45,326 nt of DNA from a virus. Position 1 is the stretch's first letter. The number at the start of each line of letters is the position of its first letter. This document shows positions 7,977-38,401 of the stretch, piece by piece. The notes below the pieces were generated by a model. It ran no database searches. It saw only the letters and a program-made list of their open reading frames with translations, and had not been told where the DNA came from. The stretch covers positions 1-45,326 of the IMG/VR virus record IMGVR_UViG_3300025133_000208, one strand, 5' to 3'. Made by a program: the position numbers and the translations under genes.

Positions 7977-8726
7977 ATGAAACTAACAGCTGAACAAATA
8001 CAAGAGAATTGGAACCGTTTAAGAACTATTATAAACAAAGAGTTTCCAGATAGAGCAGAAGCTCTAAACGTTATATATGATGAATTTGAAGAACGCATTA
8101 TGTTAATGCCTGCTTCAAGTATGGAACATTTCCATAATGCATTTCCGGGTGGTTATGTAGACCACATATTACGTGTATATGATTGTGCCGCTACGGTTTA
8201 TAATTCATGGGAAGCAATGGGATCGGATATGTCTGGATATGACATGAACGAACTTAAGTTTGCCGCTATTCATCACGATCTCGGTAAAGTAGGTTGGCCA
8301 GGTAAGAATGGTGAAATATATATTCCAAATGATTCTGAATGGCATCGTAAGAATCAAGGACGCATCTATAAAGTGAACCCAGAGAATCCATTTGCAATGG
8401 TACCTGATTTAGGTTTATGGATGTTACAGCAATATAATGTAAAAGTATCTTGGAATGAATACCAGGCCATTCGTATCCATGATGGATTATATGATGAATC
8501 GAATAAACCATATTATATATCTAGATTTCCAGATTCCAGATTAAGAGTTAGTTTGCCAATTGTGTTGCATCATGCAGACCATATGGCATCCGTTATAGAA
8601 TATGAAAGATGGAAGACGGGTAGTAGTAATGCACCTAAAAAGGCACCGGTTAAAAAAATAAATGCTAAATCAATATCATCATCCGATAATAAAGTTGATG
8701 ATATCTTTAAAGGGTTATTTGAATGA
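7977..8726 (+). CDS. HD-domain metal-dependent phosphohydrolase
   Basis: 249 aa. Metal ligands visible as H63 (GGYVDHILRV), H100-D101 (IHHDLGKVG), H168 (IRIHDGLY) and D201 (LHHADHMA), the standard order of HD phosphohydrolases. It differs from the RelA/SpoT type at 301: there is no YxxHP...LLHDVLEDT. It is closer to the broad HD group acting on nucleotides or cyclic nucleotides. The C-terminal 35 residues are a Lys/Ser-rich tail. Overlaps the next gene as ATGA (8723-8726). Exact substrate unknown. Confidence 0.8.
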   Translation: MKLTAEQIQENWNRLRTIINKEFPDRAEALNVIYDEFEERIMLMPASSMEHFHNAFPGGYVDHILRVYDCAATVYNSWEAMGSDMSGYDMNELKFAAIHHDLGKVGWPGKNGEIYIPNDSEWHRKNQGRIYKVNPENPFAMVPDLGLWMLQQYNVKVSWNEYQAIRIHDGLYDESNKPYYISRFPDSRLRVSLPIVLHHADHMASVIEYERWKTGSSNAPKKAPVKKINAKSISSSDNKVDDIFKGLFE

Positions 8727-27129: not shown

Positions 27130-27549
27130 ATGGGATGGGGATCTAATTCACGTGCCCGAAGAGCCGCGTTAAAGCATGGCTATCGATCGGGATTCGAACA
27201 TAAAGTATCAGAGCAATTAACTGAACAAAAGATTAAGTTTGGATATGAGGATACTGTAATAGAATATACAATACCGGAGAGAAAGAGTAAGTATACTGTT
27301 GACTTTACATTACCGAATGGCATATTAGTAGAAACTAAAGGTAGATGGGTAGCTGCTGATAGAAAGAAGCATTTACTAATTAAAAAACAGCAACCTGAAT
27401 TAGATATTAGGTTAGTATTCCAGTCAGCTAAATCAAAAATAAGTAAAGGGTCCAAGACAACTTATGCTGATTATTGTGACAAGCATGGGATACAATGGGC
27501 TGAGAAACAAATACCGGAATCATGGATAAATGAAAAAAAGTTCTTCTAA
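27130..27549 (+). CDS. T7-type endonuclease I (Holliday-junction resolvase)
   Basis: 139 aa, nearly the same length as T7 gp3 (149 aa). The similarity spans the protein: FRSGLE-like YRSGFEHKVSEQL, then YTVDFTLPNGILVETKGRW, DRKKHLLIKKQQPELDIRLV and YCDKHGIQWA...IPESWI. The catalytic residues correspond to E23, D58, E68 and K70 (PD-(D/E)XK fold). It resolves branched DNA before packaging. T4 uses gp49, of an unrelated fold, for this job. Lies with AAGGAAAAAG upstream, between tail genes and the primase. Confidence 0.9.
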   Translation: MGWGSNSRARRAALKHGYRSGFEHKVSEQLTEQKIKFGYEDTVIEYTIPERKSKYTVDFTLPNGILVETKGRWVAADRKKHLLIKKQQPELDIRLVFQSAKSKISKGSKTTYADYCDKHGIQWAEKQIPESWINEKKFF

Positions 27550-27730: not shown

Positions 27731-28654
27731 ATGGGTTATAAACTAGACGGACTAATCGAATCGGTATTAGGTAAAGGGCGTGCGACTAACAAAGGTAATG
27801 TTGCATATTTCTGTCCTTTCTGTCATCATCAGAAGCGTAAACTTGAAGTAAGCCATGTTAACCAGTCATGGCATTGTTGGACGTGTAATGCAGCTGGCAG
27901 AAAATTAGTAACGCTATTTAAAAAGCTTAAGGTAGATAGAATACGTATTTCGAATCTATTTACCTTGCTAGATGAAACTGAATATAAACATAAAGTTACT
28001 ACTACAGAAACACCAGTTGTAGAATTACCCGTAGAATTCAAACCATTATGGGAATTAGATTCTAAAAATCCAGAATATAGAAATGCGGTTGCATATCTAA
28101 GAACGCGTGCTATAGGCATTGCTGATATATTGAAATATAGAATTGGTTATTGTGAGTCTGGTAAGTATGGTGGCAAAATTATTATACCTAGCTATGACGC
28201 AAATGGTTCATTGAATTATTTTGTATCCCGGGCATATTATGAATCAGATAATTTTAAATATAATAATCCACCTGTATCTAAAGATATTATAGGGTTTGAA
28301 TTATTTATCAATTGGGACTTGCCGATTATACTAGTTGAAGGTGCATTTGATGCTATAGCTGTTAAGCGTAACGCAATACCGCTATTTGGTAAAACGATTA
28401 GTAATACACTTAAAATGAGGATTGTAGAAAAACAAGTAACATCAATATATGTGTGTTTAGATAAAGATGCGCGGAAGCAAGCATTTGAAACGGCTGAATA
28501 TTTCATGGGTAATGGTATTGAAGTTTACTTCGTTGATATACAGGATAAAGACCCGTCCGAAATAGGATTTCAGGATATTATTTCTTATATTGATAATACT
28601 TATAGGCTCACGGAAGAACGATTAATGGAAGAGAAGATTTTATGCATGTTGTAA
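27731..28654 (+). CDS. 61: DNA primase (DnaG/gp61-type)
   Basis: 307 aa. Zinc finger at the N-terminus with C28, C31, C49 and C52 (CPFCHHQ ... WHCWTC). TOPRIM catalytic core with E203 (ILVEGAFDAI) and D244/D246 (CLDKDA). It makes RNA primers for lagging-strand synthesis together with the replicative helicase, which is not in this window. Length is similar to T4 gp61 (342 aa). The gene overlaps the next one by 13 nt. Confidence 0.88.
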   Translation: MGYKLDGLIESVLGKGRATNKGNVAYFCPFCHHQKRKLEVSHVNQSWHCWTCNAAGRKLVTLFKKLKVDRIRISNLFTLLDETEYKHKVTTTETPVVELPVEFKPLWELDSKNPEYRNAVAYLRTRAIGIADILKYRIGYCESGKYGGKIIIPSYDANGSLNYFVSRAYYESDNFKYNNPPVSKDIIGFELFINWDLPIILVEGAFDAIAVKRNAIPLFGKTISNTLKMRIVEKQVTSIYVCLDKDARKQAFETAEYFMGNGIEVYFVDIQDKDPSEIGFQDIISYIDNTYRLTEERLMEEKILCML

Positions 28655-31600
28655 AGAAAATAGATATCGGATTATCTAAGATAGACCGAATATATCATAT
28701 TGCTGATGTTCATGTACGTAATTTAAAACGTCATAAAGAATACCGAATTGTATTTAATAGATTGTACAAATATATTAAAAGTACAAAAACACCTAATAGC
28801 GTAATTTATATCGCAGGTGATATCGTACATTCTAAAACAGACCTATCACCGGAATCAGTTGATCTTGTAAGTGAATTTTTTATTCGATGTGCGGATCTTG
28901 CCCCTACCATTATAATTGCTGGTAATCATGATTGTAATTTAAATAATAGTTATCGGTTAGATGCTATTACGCCAATTGTCAATGCTATTAATCATCCATC
29001 GGTATATTATCTTAAGGATACTGATATATATGAATTAGGCGATTGTCAATTCAATGTTATGTCAGTATTCGATAAGCCAGCTGATTTTATTCGCGGAGCT
29101 AATTTTGAGGGTAAAAATAAGATTGCATTGCATCATGGTGCGGTGCATAATGCCACAACTGATTTAGGTATATCATTATCAAATACTCATGTTACTAATG
29201 ATTTATTTGCTGGCCATGATTTAGTCTTGTTAGGTGATATTCATAAAACGCAATATCTTAACAATGAAAAAACTATAGCATATCCAGGTTCATTAATACA
29301 GCAATCACATGGAGAGGTTTTAGTACATGGTATTATGGTATGGGATGTAGCTAAAAGAGAATCTGAATTCGTACCAATTAAAAATGATTATGGTTATTAT
29401 ACGTTTGAGGTTAAAAATGGCAAGATCGTTAATGCATCTAATAATGTACCACCTAAGCCTAGGCTGCGCCTTAAAGTAACGGATACGGATACTAGTGCCG
29501 TGAAATTAATTGTAACTGAGCTCAAACAAAAATATAAGGTTAAAGAATTAAGCATTCAGCGGATTAATAATCTTAACCAAAGTGCAGTAACACGAAAAAT
29601 TAATTTTGCTGATTATAGAGAAGTTGAAGCTCAAAATAAAATTATAAGCGAATATTTAACTGATAATTATGTTATAGCAGAACCAGTACTAGATGCAATC
29701 CGACATATCAATCGAAAAGTCCATAGCAAGATACCAGAACTAGTTGCAAACCGGAATGTAACATGGATACCTAAAGTGTTTGAGTTTTCCAATATGTTTA
29801 GTTATGGGGATTCCAATAAAATTGATTTTACTAATATGACTGGTACATATGGATTATTCGCTCCAAATGCTACCGGTAAATCAACATTATTGGATGCGTT
29901 ATCATTTTGTTGTTTTGATAAATGTTCTAGGACATCAAAGGCTCGCCATGTATTAAATAATAAAAAATCATCCTTTCAATCAAAGTTTGAATTTGAATTA
30001 GAAGGTCGTACATATTATATAGAACGAGGCGGTGTTAAAAATAATCATGGTCATGTAAGAGTAATTGTTAATTTTTGGTCTATAGACGAGGATGGTAATA
30101 AAGTATTGCTTAATGGCGATCAACGTGATTCCACTAATAAAGTTATACGTACGTATTTAGGTACATACGATGATTTTATTTTAACGGCATTATCATTACA
30201 AAATAACAATACTGGATTTATCGATAAATCTCAACGAGAACGAAAAGATTTATTATCACAGTTTTTAGATATTGATATATTTGATCAGCAATATCAAATC
30301 GCAAATGAAGAAATAAAAGAAACGGCAGCAGCTATAAAGGAACATAAGCGAACTGATTATTCGACAGAACTTTCCGAAGCAATCACAACTATAAATTCTG
30401 TATCAGCTTCTTTACAAGAATACGATAAAGAGCGTGGTAGCTTAATTGAAATACGTACTGCATTATCAACTGAATTATTAAATACCACTAAAGATCTTAA
30501 GCCGGTAGATTCTGAACTAACAGATATAAAATATTTGCATGAGCAATATTTACATTTCACTCAATCCGCTGCTATTCTTGAAGGTACGATTCATGACTGG
30601 AATACGGATTTAAAAGAAACGGAAGAGTTAATAGAGACTACCCGCACTGCATATGATAATTTAATTGTAGATGGATTGCCTGAGAAAATAGAAGAATGCG
30701 AAACTGCAATATATCATATCAAATCACTTCATGGTAACCTTAAGGTACAGCAAGATATATTATCGCATAAAGAGTCGCTAGCATCTCAATTAGAAATGCA
30801 TGAATATGATCCAGATTGTACTTATTGCACATCAAATCCAATAGTGCAAACGGCAATTATAGAATCAGAATCAATTCCAGATATTACAAGCAAGATTGAT
30901 GATTTAACTAATAAAATTGCATATTCAAGTAGTTTATATAATAAGGATTCATATAATATATTGGTATCTGATTTAGGTACAGCTGAATCTGATTTAGGTG
31001 ATGCAATTAAAAAAGAATCATCAATTAAATATGAATTAAGTAAGATTGATTCTGAATACCAGGCAGTTAAATGGAATTTAGATAAATATATAGATCTTCT
31101 TGCTAAGGCTGAAGAGCAAAAAGAAATAGTTAAAGCTAATAAAGAGTTAAATGAGCAGATAGTAATAATTGAATCTGAATTATCTGATACAGAATCTGAA
31201 ATTGATGAGATTGAAAGTAAAATATCAAAATTACGTCCTAAACTAATTATAGCTCAAAAAACTAAAACAGACGTTGAAAAGTCTATAAAGCGATTAATTG
31301 AATTAGAACAATCATATACCGGATATGAATATTATCTTAAAGCCGTTAAACGAGATGGGGTGCCATATGATTTAATTACAAAAGCATTGCCACAAATTGA
31401 AGCTGAAGTAAATAATATCTTAACCCAGATAGTTGAATTTACAGTATTGCTTAATACTGATGGTAAGAATATAAATGCATATATTGTATATGATACTGAT
31501 AATTATTGGCCATTGGAATTGACATCAGGCATGGAAAAGTTTATCGCAAGTCTTGCAATACGAGCTTCATTAATACACGTATCCAGTTTACCTCGTCCCA

Positions 31601-31797
31601 ACTTTATAGCAATAGATGAAGGGTTTGGTAATTTAGATTCAGATAATCTTAATTCAATGTATATGCTATTTGATTATTTAAAATCACAATTTGGATTTAT
31701 TTTAAGTATATCCCATATTGATGCAATGAGAGATATCGTTGATAGTTTAATAGAAATTAAGAAGGAGTCTGGATACTCGAAAATATCATATGATTGA
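28642..31797 (+). CDS. 47/46: Fused Mre11-Rad50 (gp47-gp46, SbcD-SbcC) recombination nuclease
   Basis: A single 1051-aa chain. Residues 1-350 are Mre11/SbcD-like: D22-x-H24, GD60, GNHD (94-97), a downstream HHG and GDIH. Residues about 370-1051 are Rad50/SbcC-like: Walker A NATGKST (409-415), a long coiled coil with the zinc hook CTYC at 726-729, signature LTSGMEKF (960-967), and Walker B FIAIDEGF with D992/E993. In T4 these are two genes that process DNA ends for recombination-dependent replication. The fusion fixes stoichiometry and removes the need for complex assembly. No internal start or frameshift is evident. Confidence 0.9.
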   Translation: MHVVKKIDIGLSKIDRIYHIADVHVRNLKRHKEYRIVFNRLYKYIKSTKTPNSVIYIAGDIVHSKTDLSPESVDLVSEFFIRCADLAPTIIIAGNHDCNLNNSYRLDAITPIVNAINHPSVYYLKDTDIYELGDCQFNVMSVFDKPADFIRGANFEGKNKIALHHGAVHNATTDLGISLSNTHVTNDLFAGHDLVLLGDIHKTQYLNNEKTIAYPGSLIQQSHGEVLVHGIMVWDVAKRESEFVPIKNDYGYYTFEVKNGKIVNASNNVPPKPRLRLKVTDTDTSAVKLIVTELKQKYKVKELSIQRINNLNQSAVTRKINFADYREVEAQNKIISEYLTDNYVIAEPVLDAIRHINRKVHSKIPELVANRNVTWIPKVFEFSNMFSYGDSNKIDFTNMTGTYGLFAPNATGKSTLLDALSFCCFDKCSRTSKARHVLNNKKSSFQSKFEFELEGRTYYIERGGVKNNHGHVRVIVNFWSIDEDGNKVLLNGDQRDSTNKVIRTYLGTYDDFILTALSLQNNNTGFIDKSQRERKDLLSQFLDIDIFDQQYQIANEEIKETAAAIKEHKRTDYSTELSEAITTINSVSASLQEYDKERGSLIEIRTALSTELLNTTKDLKPVDSELTDIKYLHEQYLHFTQSAAILEGTIHDWNTDLKETEELIETTRTAYDNLIVDGLPEKIEECETAIYHIKSLHGNLKVQQDILSHKESLASQLEMHEYDPDCTYCTSNPIVQTAIIESESIPDITSKIDDLTNKIAYSSSLYNKDSYNILVSDLGTAESDLGDAIKKESSIKYELSKIDSEYQAVKWNLDKYIDLLAKAEEQKEIVKANKELNEQIVIIESELSDTESEIDEIESKISKLRPKLIIAQKTKTDVEKSIKRLIELEQSYTGYEYYLKAVKRDGVPYDLITKALPQIEAEVNNILTQIVEFTVLLNTDGKNINAYIVYDTDNYWPLELTSGMEKFIASLAIRASLIHVSSLPRPNFIAIDEGFGNLDSDNLNSMYMLFDYLKSQFGFILSISHIDAMRDIVDSLIEIKKESGYSKISYD

Positions 31798-34611: not shown

Positions 34612-35220
34612 ATGGCAGATATAACATTATCACAGGAAGCAGTTTATAAATTTACCAGTACAGGCTCGTCAGAGTTTCAATTTACGGGAGGACAGAACGT
34701 ACCATTTCAGTATGATTTTTTGCATAGTATTATGATTACTAGTAGTCAAAGTCCTCTAATATCATTAAAAAATGATGATCCAACGTCGCCATCATTTATT
34801 AAAATGACATCCGTAGAAAACTCGGGCAATGAATATGAAATTCAAGAAGCAGCTGGCGGATATCTAACATTCCATAATCAAGACACAGCTCGATATCATT
34901 TCGCTATTAGTGGTTCTGGGGTTGGCAATACTCGACAAACATTATTCAATTCTTATATAGCATTAGATGTACAAGGTACAGATCCTGCAATTCGTAATAG
35001 TTTCGCTCATATATACGCAAAAAATGATGGTGGTGATGCTCATGTATATGTACAAGATGAAACTGGTGTTGTAACTAGAATATCACCGCACAATGAAGAA
35101 GGTGATTGGGAATATTTTTCAAGAAATAAACTAACAGGTAAAACCATACGTATCAATATGGAACATTTCATAAAACGCATGGAAGAGATTACCGGAGAGG
35201 TATTTATAAAATATGAATAA
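34612..35220 (+). CDS. Tail fibre C-terminal/tip-type protein (202 aa)
   Basis: 202 aa. The last 80 residues (HIYAKNDGGDAHVYVQDETG, VVTRISPHNEEGDWEYFSRN) followed by a helical end (INMEHFIKRMEEITGE) form a module commonly found at the end of long fibre proteins. Here it is a separate gene, so it may assemble onto the 717-aa fibre. Overlaps the start of the multi-enzyme gene by 8 nt. Confidence 0.68.
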   Translation: MADITLSQEAVYKFTSTGSSEFQFTGGQNVPFQYDFLHSIMITSSQSPLISLKNDDPTSPSFIKMTSVENSGNEYEIQEAAGGYLTFHNQDTARYHFAISGSGVGNTRQTLFNSYIALDVQGTDPAIRNSFAHIYAKNDGGDAHVYVQDETGVVTRISPHNEEGDWEYFSRNKLTGKTIRINMEHFIKRMEEITGEVFIKYE

Positions 35221-38200
35221 GATGGATTTAGGTACTTGGTTAGCAGAACGTGTTATCACTGAAGATAATGGTATTGATAAAGTAATTGCAATTTATCCAG
35301 GCAGGTTCCAGCCTTTCGGTATACATCATAAAAAAACATATGATGAGTTAGCAAAACAATTTGGTAAAGAAAATACTTTTATTGCAACAGCTGATAACAT
35401 GGATAGCAAGGGTAAGCTAAAAGATAAATCACCATTTACATTTGCACAGAAAAAACAATTAATGACTGCGATGGGGGTACCAGCTGATAAAATAATAGAA
35501 ACTAATCCATATCGGCCAGTTGAAATAACTAATAAATTCGATGCAGATACGACGGCCGTTATTTTCGCGGTTGGTGAAAAAGATATGCGTGATAGTCCTA
35601 GATTTGCGAATCTCGACGGAGTTCTTAAGAAGACCGGAGCTCCTGCCTACTATAAAACCTATAAGCCAAACGAAGAATTGGCAGGACTTGCTAAGCATGG
35701 TTATGTTACAGTAGCACCCCATGTTGAAATTGATATTCCTGGGTATGATGGTGAGATGAGTGGTACTGCATTGCGACAAGTGCTAGCGACAGCAGATGAA
35801 AAAAGCTTCGAAGATATAACCGGTATAAGTGATCCTAAGGTCTACGGGATGGTCCAGAAGGTACTTGCATCAGATGCACCTCAAGCCGAACAAATAGAAC
35901 GTTTTATAGAGTCATATGATATCAAATCAATATTAAATGAAGCATCATCTACAGCACCAGGCGATCATGATGTAGATGATGGTCCGAGATATTTTTATGG
36001 TAATAATAAATCATACGAAGCTAGTACAGCAAAAATTGCAAAAAGGTTAGGATATACCGTTATAAATTATCTTAACGGAAACAAAGAACTACCAAAATAT
36101 GATACTAAATTTCCAGGCGGACCTGTACCGGCGGTATCATTCTTTCCGGTAGGTATTGACGGTGCAGTAGATTCAGGAACAAATTATTTCAAAGAATTAA
36201 AAGGTAAGCCTGCATATAATAAATGGAAATCATATATTAATAATGTAGCCCAGCAAGTAGGATATAAATTTTTAAATTTCTTAGGTGCTGAAGATTCTGT
36301 AGAATCAAGTGCCAAAGAACCGACAAAAGCATTAAAGGTAACACCTAAAGTCATAAATAAAGATCCGATAGCATTAGATGAGTCTGTAACTAATAAAGAA
36401 TGGTGGAATGCCCAATTTCAGATAATCTTGCAAGAACAACCTATAACACAAGATGTATTATCCAGTTTTGATATACAAGATTCACTAAATACGACCATAT
36501 GGAATGATGATAATACATTAAAACCGGCCGTACATAAAAAATTATTAAAAATAGCGACAAATTTTTTTAAAGAACTCAAGTTACCAAATTCTGTTAAATT
36601 AGAAGATATAACATTAACCGGTAGTATTGCAAATTATAATTGGTCAAAGTTTTCTGATATTGATTTGCATTTAAGATTAAATTTTTCTGATATATCAGAT
36701 GATATTGATTTCGTAAAAAATTATTTCTTAGCTAAGAAAAATATCTGGAACCAAAAGCATGATATTACATTATATGGATATCCTGTAGAAGTTTATGTTG
36801 AAAACATAGGAGAGCCACATACAGCATCTGGGTTATATTCAATATTAAATAATGACTGGATTAATATACCAAATAAAAGCGAACTAGAAATAGATAAAGT
36901 ATCAATACGTACTAAAGCTAAATCATATATTGATATGGCAAATGAATTAGATAAGTTATATGAAGAAGGTGAATACCAAGAAGTAATTGATATAGTTGAT
37001 ACTATTAAGTTAAAATTAAGAAATATGAGATCCGCTGGATTAGAGGATGGCGGAGAATATAGTGTTGAAAATTTAGCATTTAAAGTGTTGCGACGCAATG
37101 GGTTTATTGAAAGAATCAATGATCTATCAACTAAAGCATATGATACCAATTTAGGTGCCAATGGAGAATTTCAATTAACAGAATCTATATTATTAACAGA
37201 AGGTGGAGCGGCAGGTCATATGGCACATCCATTTGATGATAATGATTTAACTTTTGAAGATCTTAAAGAATTAGTAAGAAGGTCGTTAGCTGGTGAATTA
37301 GATTTAGAAGATTCTGTATCAGAAAAAACAGATGGCCAGAATTTACAAGTAACCTTTAAGGATGGCCAAGTAGGTGCTGCTAGAAATAAATCAACAATTA
37401 TCAATCCAATGAGTATTGATGCTGTTGAAGAAAAATTCAAAGGTCGCGGCGATATTGAAAAGGCATTTGTATATGCAATGCAAGATTTGGAAAATGCTAT
37501 ATTAGCTATACCAGAAGCTCAGAGAGAAAAAATATTTGATAATGGTCGTAGGTTTGTTAATTTGGAAATTATATATCCTGCCACTCAAAATGTTATATCA
37601 TATGGACCGGCTGCATATTTGCAATTTCATGGTATAGATGAATTTGATGAAACTGGTAAAAAAGTTAAATCATATCCAGACCAAGGCGATAAGCTACAAA
37701 AGATAATTGCTAAAGTAAATGCAGATACACAGGAGCATTTTAAGATTATACCACCAAACGTAATTCAAATGCAAAAGGATATTGAATTTGATGAAAAGGT
37801 ACCTTATTATATTAGCAAGATAAATAAGATTCAAAAAGAGTTTGGGCTACCGGATAAAGCAGAAGTATCTGAATATCACGAAGAATGGTGGACTAAATTT
37901 ATAAACGAGAATATCCCAGAAGCTAATCCAGAAGTAAAGGAAGGATTAACGAGAAGATGGGCATTAGGTGATAAATCATTTAGATTAAATAAAAAGACAA
38001 TACCAGATATAGCTGTATTAGCAAAGGCTATAGACATAGATAAAACGCAATCAGTAGCATTAGGTAAAAAGAATATCAAACAGTTTGAAGAAATCTTTTT
38101 AGAATTAGGCGCTGATGTAATGCGTAATATTACTAATTATCTAGCAGTTAATCCTGATGATTCTGTTAAGAGCCTACGTAAAGATGTTACGCAGGCGATA

Positions 38201-38401
38201 AAGGCAGTTAAAGATTCAAATGATTTAGAAGCATTAAATAAACTACAAATACAATTACAGAGAATAGAACGATTGGGTGGATTTGAAAAAATAGTACCAT
38301 CAGAAGGCATAGTATTTATATATAAAGGAAAAACCTATAAGTATACAGGCGCATTTGCCCCAGTAAATCAATTATTAGGCCTATTTCGTTATTCTCGGTA
38401 A
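35213..38401 (+). CDS. Multi-enzyme nucleotidyl-transfer polyprotein
   Basis: 1062 aa. Residues 22-225: NMNAT/cytidylyltransferase-like, with GRFQPFGIHH (30-39) as the HxGH-type motif and MSGTALR (182-188) as the late SxT motif. Residues 244-390: unknown domain (SFFPVGIDGAVDSGTNYFKE). Residues 409-650: Pol-beta-like nucleotidyltransferase with G470-S471 and D482/D484 (FSDIDLHL). Residues 664-1062: RNA/DNA-ligase-like with K705-x-D707-G708, E785, EGIV (1031-1034) and K1040/K1043. Linkers contain L/I-x-E sites (ITE17, LNE243, LDE390, LQE408, LTE657, LTE663) resembling T4 prohead-protease cleavage sites. Substrates unknown; the G36 in place of H/T in the first motif is unusual. Confidence 0.8.
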   Translation: MNKMDLGTWLAERVITEDNGIDKVIAIYPGRFQPFGIHHKKTYDELAKQFGKENTFIATADNMDSKGKLKDKSPFTFAQKKQLMTAMGVPADKIIETNPYRPVEITNKFDADTTAVIFAVGEKDMRDSPRFANLDGVLKKTGAPAYYKTYKPNEELAGLAKHGYVTVAPHVEIDIPGYDGEMSGTALRQVLATADEKSFEDITGISDPKVYGMVQKVLASDAPQAEQIERFIESYDIKSILNEASSTAPGDHDVDDGPRYFYGNNKSYEASTAKIAKRLGYTVINYLNGNKELPKYDTKFPGGPVPAVSFFPVGIDGAVDSGTNYFKELKGKPAYNKWKSYINNVAQQVGYKFLNFLGAEDSVESSAKEPTKALKVTPKVINKDPIALDESVTNKEWWNAQFQIILQEQPITQDVLSSFDIQDSLNTTIWNDDNTLKPAVHKKLLKIATNFFKELKLPNSVKLEDITLTGSIANYNWSKFSDIDLHLRLNFSDISDDIDFVKNYFLAKKNIWNQKHDITLYGYPVEVYVENIGEPHTASGLYSILNNDWINIPNKSELEIDKVSIRTKAKSYIDMANELDKLYEEGEYQEVIDIVDTIKLKLRNMRSAGLEDGGEYSVENLAFKVLRRNGFIERINDLSTKAYDTNLGANGEFQLTESILLTEGGAAGHMAHPFDDNDLTFEDLKELVRRSLAGELDLEDSVSEKTDGQNLQVTFKDGQVGAARNKSTIINPMSIDAVEEKFKGRGDIEKAFVYAMQDLENAILAIPEAQREKIFDNGRRFVNLEIIYPATQNVISYGPAAYLQFHGIDEFDETGKKVKSYPDQGDKLQKIIAKVNADTQEHFKIIPPNVIQMQKDIEFDEKVPYYISKINKIQKEFGLPDKAEVSEYHEEWWTKFINENIPEANPEVKEGLTRRWALGDKSFRLNKKTIPDIAVLAKAIDIDKTQSVALGKKNIKQFEEIFLELGADVMRNITNYLAVNPDDSVKSLRKDVTQAIKAVKDSNDLEALNKLQIQLQRIERLGGFEKIVPSEGIVFIYKGKTYKYTGAFAPVNQLLGLFRYSR

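Follow-up and report, generated by a model that had tools for sequence, protein, structure and literature searches.

A phage Mre11-Rad50 fusion in a single open reading frame, and relatives in which the fused gene is split again

In canonical systems SbcD and SbcC, or gp47 and gp46, are encoded by separate genes, so the open reading frame (ORF) at positions 28642–31797 (+ strand) of a 45,326-nt viral record from IMG/VR (the window, meaning the whole stretch of DNA that was analysed) raises the question of whether Mre11 and Rad50 are truly joined there in one polypeptide and, if so, what such a chain would do. An earlier note on this DNA had read gp47-like and gp46-like motifs, with a zinc hook at C726/C729, in one 1051-residue frame; ORF translation, Pfam and PHROGs bear this out, and the motifs came out where that note had placed them. 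The frame is open from its ATG to the stop codon and encodes an Mre11-like phosphoesterase followed by a Rad50-like ATPase, an arrangement unlike the separate genes of the canonical pairs. Pfam placed Metallophos on residues 16–174 (E=2.6e-8) and AAA_23 on residues 383–585 (E=4.1e-13), with SbcC_Walker_B on residues 961–1010 below cut-off; PHROGs assigned residues 15–341 to an SbcD-like family (phrog_100; 2.6e-29) and residues 285–1050 to an SbcC-like family (phrog_77; 9.9e-49). In phmmer searches the C-terminal half matched E. coli SbcC and archaeal Rad50 chains, and the N-terminal half gave a weak match to T. maritima SbcD. The Mre11 half contains D22xH24, GD60xxH63, GN95H96D97, H165 and GD199IH201, and the Rad50/SbcC ATPase set is complete, comprising Walker A (residues 407–414, a variant with Ala at the first Gly position), Q-loop (Q520), CxxC hook (C726/C729), signature (the variant SGME, 962–965), Walker B (988–993, with DE at 992–993), D-loop and H-loop (H1025). 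These observations support a true gp47/gp46-like fusion with a zinc hook.

An AlphaFold2 model of the protein, for which the window protein and 43 relatives served as input, had a mean pLDDT of 84.8 and a pTM of 0.46, a value at which the relative placement of the domains is not established. Along the chain (+ strand throughout), the phosphoesterase core and capping domain extend to about residue 307–308 (residues about 15–308; 28684–29565), as delimited by Pfam, PHROGs, AlphaFold2 and VIA-align together; two helices follow in the predicted secondary structure (328–342 and 347–362; 29623–29727), then a linker of 11 residues (363–373; 29728–29760), placed by the model and by the alignment of relatives, and the first Rad50 strand (374–383). 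The ATPase N-lobe with Walker A and Q-loop occupies 29761–30276, and the coiled coil (residues about 546–902; 30277–31347) is modelled as arms of ~175 residues each around the hook C726-x-x-C729 (30817–30828), before the C-lobe with signature, Walker B, D-loop and H-loop (31357–31794). By position and by the published description of such proteins (PMC3175470), the two-helix element 328–362 would be the Rad50-binding helix-loop-helix of Mre11. VIA-align superposed residues 15–308 on S. aureus SbcD (7dog_B; Z=25.1) and residues 375–1051 on SbcC/Rad50 heads (Z=28–30), with Foldseek in agreement. E. coli SbcCD is among the closest solved structures for both halves but consists of two subunits, and its SbcC alone measures 1048 aa, so its coiled coil is much longer than that of the window protein. 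The best matches in a viral fold library were proteins of Tupanvirus, Harvfovirus and other giant viruses annotated as DNA repair exonucleases, mostly of 1200–1390 residues with alignments covering the greater part of the protein; further matches came from Tenacibaculum phages (about 1310 aa) and Listeria phage LMTA-57 (1009 aa).

The fusion architecture as such is not new, having been published in 2011 with aquatic phages included: Yoshida, Claverie and Ogata described Mimivirus R555 and twelve other Mre11/Rad50 fusions, found R555 homologues to be abundant in aquatic metagenomes, with genes for phage primases and T7-like endonucleases as neighbours, and judged the fused order with a 9–12 residue linker to be compatible with the T. 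maritima complex (PMC3175470). The fused phage that the paper names is Bacillus phage 0305phi8-36. R555 has His at the third Asp of GDxxD and Asp242 at the position of P. furiosus His206 (PMC3175470). The window protein, compared with R555 as published, has the same N-to-C order in one chain, the metal motifs, the same His in GDxxH (H63), the same Asp for His in motif V (D199, at the P. furiosus H206 position) and the probable helix-loop-helix with a short linker, whose 11 residues in the AlphaFold2 model lie within the published range; its gene also has the primase and T7-like endonuclease neighbours of the aquatic viral homologues. R555 differs in its length (1351 aa), its long coiled coil and its origin in an amoeba virus, as against 1051 aa in a contractile-tailed phage. 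A counterpart in an isolate, WWT39521.1 of Microcystis phage Mel-JY01, is likewise a fusion (44% identity over 99%) with a primase one small gene upstream; it belongs to a different phage, has a GIY-YIG protein upstream in place of endonuclease I, and is annotated merely as "AAA domain containing protein", with the fusion unnamed.

How widely the single-frame gene occurs was assessed by scanning phages and metagenomes for the same architecture. Scans for further relatives returned 20 and then at least 590 (IMG/VR), of which the best 80 were kept. At 110 loci with both halves (a set that includes a few same-contig or near-duplicate entries, and Mel-JY01 from GenBank), one ORF spans residue ≤120 to ≥980; the exceptions to a single ORF were truncated contigs and two loci, L013 and L034. 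Among 103 non-identical relatives, at least 101 keep D60, N95, H96, H165, D199, H201, K413, Q520, C726, C729, S962-G-M-E965, D992 and E993; D199 is invariant (103/103), and H24 of motif I is kept in 92, whereas every other motif residue named above is near-invariant. A search of plasmids found no relative. Two contigs assigned to Nitrosopelagicus and Halobacteriovorax MAGs (L112 and L114) also carry fused genes; they may be viral contigs that entered the bins, or prophage. In a Flavobacteriaceae MAG, an SbcD-like ORF belonging to this family (L116:1409–2317) abuts the 3' end of a TldD/PmbA-like gene on the opposite strand; this contig is possibly chimeric.

The neighbourhood of the gene is one of replication and is conserved. 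In the window, the gene order is endonuclease I (27130–27549, + strand; PF05367, E=5.8e-55; phrog_945), of the T7 gp3-like Holliday-junction resolvase family, then a DNA primase-like protein with zinc ribbon and TOPRIM (27731–28654, + strand; Pfam and PHROG), then the fusion, whose first 13 nt are shared with the 3' end of the primase ORF. Of the 105 relatives that carry this primase, 104 have it no more than 250 nt from the fusion, and endonuclease I was found at 81 of the 110 loci. Terminase, portal and baseplate wedge genes elsewhere in the window identify it as a fragment of a contractile-tailed phage. The window also encodes a 1062-aa protein (35213–38401) with an N-terminal cytidylyltransferase-like domain (27–139) and, at residues 415–641, a match to phrog_36119, whose function is unknown, and two separate genes that bear PHROG names of metal-dependent phosphohydrolase-like proteins (274–837 and 7977–8726).

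Taken together, we consider it very probable that the product is an Mre11-Rad50 (SbcDC) machine in one chain, of the kind known from Mimivirus R555 and aquatic phages, and that as a homodimeric M2R2 complex it resects and tethers DNA ends in recombination-dependent replication. The dimer geometry, activity and replication role of the fused protein we infer as follows. Two fused chains would pair through their Mre11 domains, through ATP-sandwiched Rad50 heads and possibly through the zinc hook, so as to form the canonical M2R2 complex at a fixed ratio of 1:1. Beyond the capping domain, the helix-loop-helix would sit at the base of the coiled coil, either its own or that of the partner chain, and the 11-residue linker, whose length fits the canonical geometry, would join Mre11 to the Rad50 head that follows it. 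ATP-driven closing and opening of the heads would control the access of the nuclease to DNA ends, and by analogy with T4 gp46/gp47 the ends would be resected and tethered for recombination-dependent replication beside the primase, the resulting junctions being resolved by the neighbouring endonuclease I. The earlier note had expected the cis-linkage to matter both for stoichiometry and for how the ATPase head pairs; the ratio is indeed fixed at 1:1, but the working 2:2 assembly need not change, since two fused chains yield a canonical M2R2. Catalytic details may differ, because motif V reads GDIH, not GHxH, and the signature SGME, not SGGE.

That the main job of the protein lies elsewhere, for example in the degradation of the host chromosome or in countering host nucleases, is unlikely but deserves some weight: the annotation of T4 gp46/47 includes host-DNA degradation and the endonuclease I gene lies two genes upstream of the fusion, whereas the fusion itself is tightly linked to the primase. 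A separate second gp46/47 pair may be encoded elsewhere in the genome, outside the 45-kb fragment.

Much less probable is that the single frame nevertheless gives two products, with Rad50 freed by an internal start or by post-translational proteolysis. In-frame ATG/GTG codons do occur near the junction (29776, 29794 and 29836), but in the window none has a Shine-Dalgarno-like match of more than 3 nt, so that no in-frame start with a match of at least 4 nt falls within residues 345–399, and 97 of the 103 relatives likewise have no candidate start with such a match; in the other six the positions within residues 345–399 are scattered. Translation from the ATG at residue 385 or 399 would begin past the first Rad50 strand (374–383) and give products devoid of it. 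An internal start for a separate Rad50 had been raised in the earlier note; it was looked for, and none is conserved. Between the window gene and the 95% identical gene of another metagenome (L008), dN/dS is 0.065 over the whole gene and 0.03 over residues 240–400; by this sequence measure, the Mre11/Rad50 junction is under purifying selection.

The joining of two neighbouring genes by a sequencing or assembly error, a fair prior worry given that the genes are separate in T4, Twort and Bacillus phage 035JT004, can be dismissed, since other metagenomes hold independent contigs with a 100% identical full-length gene (L002), the 95% identical gene on a 153-kb contig (L008) and a truncated gene matching at 100% over residues 1–462 (L010), the junction is under selection, and a stop or frameshift between the halves, looked for in the window, is absent there as at the 110 one-frame loci.

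The two-gene phage systems compared here, T4 gp47/gp46, Twort RncA/RncB and 035JT004 SbcD/SbcC, share the domains and the presumed function of the fusion but differ in their two genes, in motif V (GHxH) and in the signature (SAGE/SEGE), so that two changes, GDIH and SGME, mark the fused phage family. In a small FastTree tree the fused sequences separated from those of E. coli and of the phages T4, Twort and 035JT004 with support of 0.60–0.82; with such support and an outgroup of four sequences, the tree suggests but does not show that the fusion is monophyletic.

The window gene is uninterrupted, and the question of what becomes of such a fusion arises in a sister clade, where 34 of 93 classifiable IMG/VR loci, in the L034/L125 subclade, carry the gene as two ORFs, always divided at one and the same beta-turn; the 93-locus sample includes near-duplicate contigs and, having been collected with a split N-terminal half as query, over-represents split forms. 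The cut falls inside Mre11 after motif V, between GDIHKxQFLxxR[DE] and the YPGSxxQQ strand. Split genes lie at L034:3304–6547, L125:2301–5553 and L130:3296–6577, and also at L140, L141, L146, L147, L150–L155, L172, L178, L181 and others. The first ORF ends in 22–30 extra residues with a net charge of −2 to −7 (vEIxIDExDLxKYPGxxIxE), and the second begins with a head of net charge +3 to +8 (MxKKIKIKxKKPWIA). The ORFs overlap by up to 46 nt, are separated by a single stop or lie 73–924 nt apart; this variable spacing and frame argue against one sequencing error, and a larger overlap at L160 reflects only a long stop-to-stop frame. In a 484-kb phage (LR756508; L013:9989–14214) a 305-aa ORF breaks the gene at this same point, following GDIHKRQ; its product has zinc-finger-like cysteines and a TnsA-like endonuclease domain that Pfam scores above cut-off. 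At L148, as at L145 where the spacing is the same, the 924-nt gap holds an ORF of 300 aa (4689–5591 in L148) that matches Vsr weakly.

These features make it probable that in this clade the fused gene was cut again by a homing-endonuclease-type element at a beta-turn of the Mre11 catalytic domain, that the acidic tail and basic head pair as an intermolecular hairpin extension through which the nuclease reassembles, and that in places the insertion is a recent gain or loss. Some split genes have close fused relatives (L156 and L203, 93.5% identical over their shared parts; L158 and L200, 92%), and parsimony on FastTree trees required 6–9 fused/split changes, which together indicate that the insertion comes and goes. 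When L178 was modelled by AlphaFold2 with its single stop read through, the acidic-tail strand (188–200) paired with residues 221–235 of the basic head, forming a long hairpin by secondary structure with pLDDT mostly about 88–92 and about 70 at the joint; the read-through is a stand-in for two chains, and joining them favours this outcome. Homing-endonuclease-split phage genes with working products are known in Aeh1 nrdA/mobE and T4 gene 60/mobA (PMC2988022), so that the split Mre11-Rad50 gene would add a further example to an established phenomenon.

Two other kinds of element were considered and rejected. A self-splicing intron is not indicated at L034, where a group II match scored 16.7 bits (cut-off 49) and fell where the coding region begins, away from the split site, and an Rfam intron search of L013 and L148 gave no credible intron. 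An intein does not fit first ORFs that stop after the 22–30 extra residues (longer in L013 only) and have no junction Cys. A tblastn search of isolate phages with a 34-residue acidic tail, a short and therefore weak query, gave no match.

The window gene thus adds little beyond another member of a published fusion family; the re-split of that fusion looks the newer finding. With at least 590 relatives in IMG/VR, single-chain Mre11-Rad50 is the usual form in a large, mostly aquatic group of phages, and its single chain and short coiled coil make it a handy construct for structural work on Mre11-Rad50 communication. The re-split relatives would provide a natural series (fused, split with an endonuclease, and split without one) on how an enzyme survives a cut through its catalytic domain.
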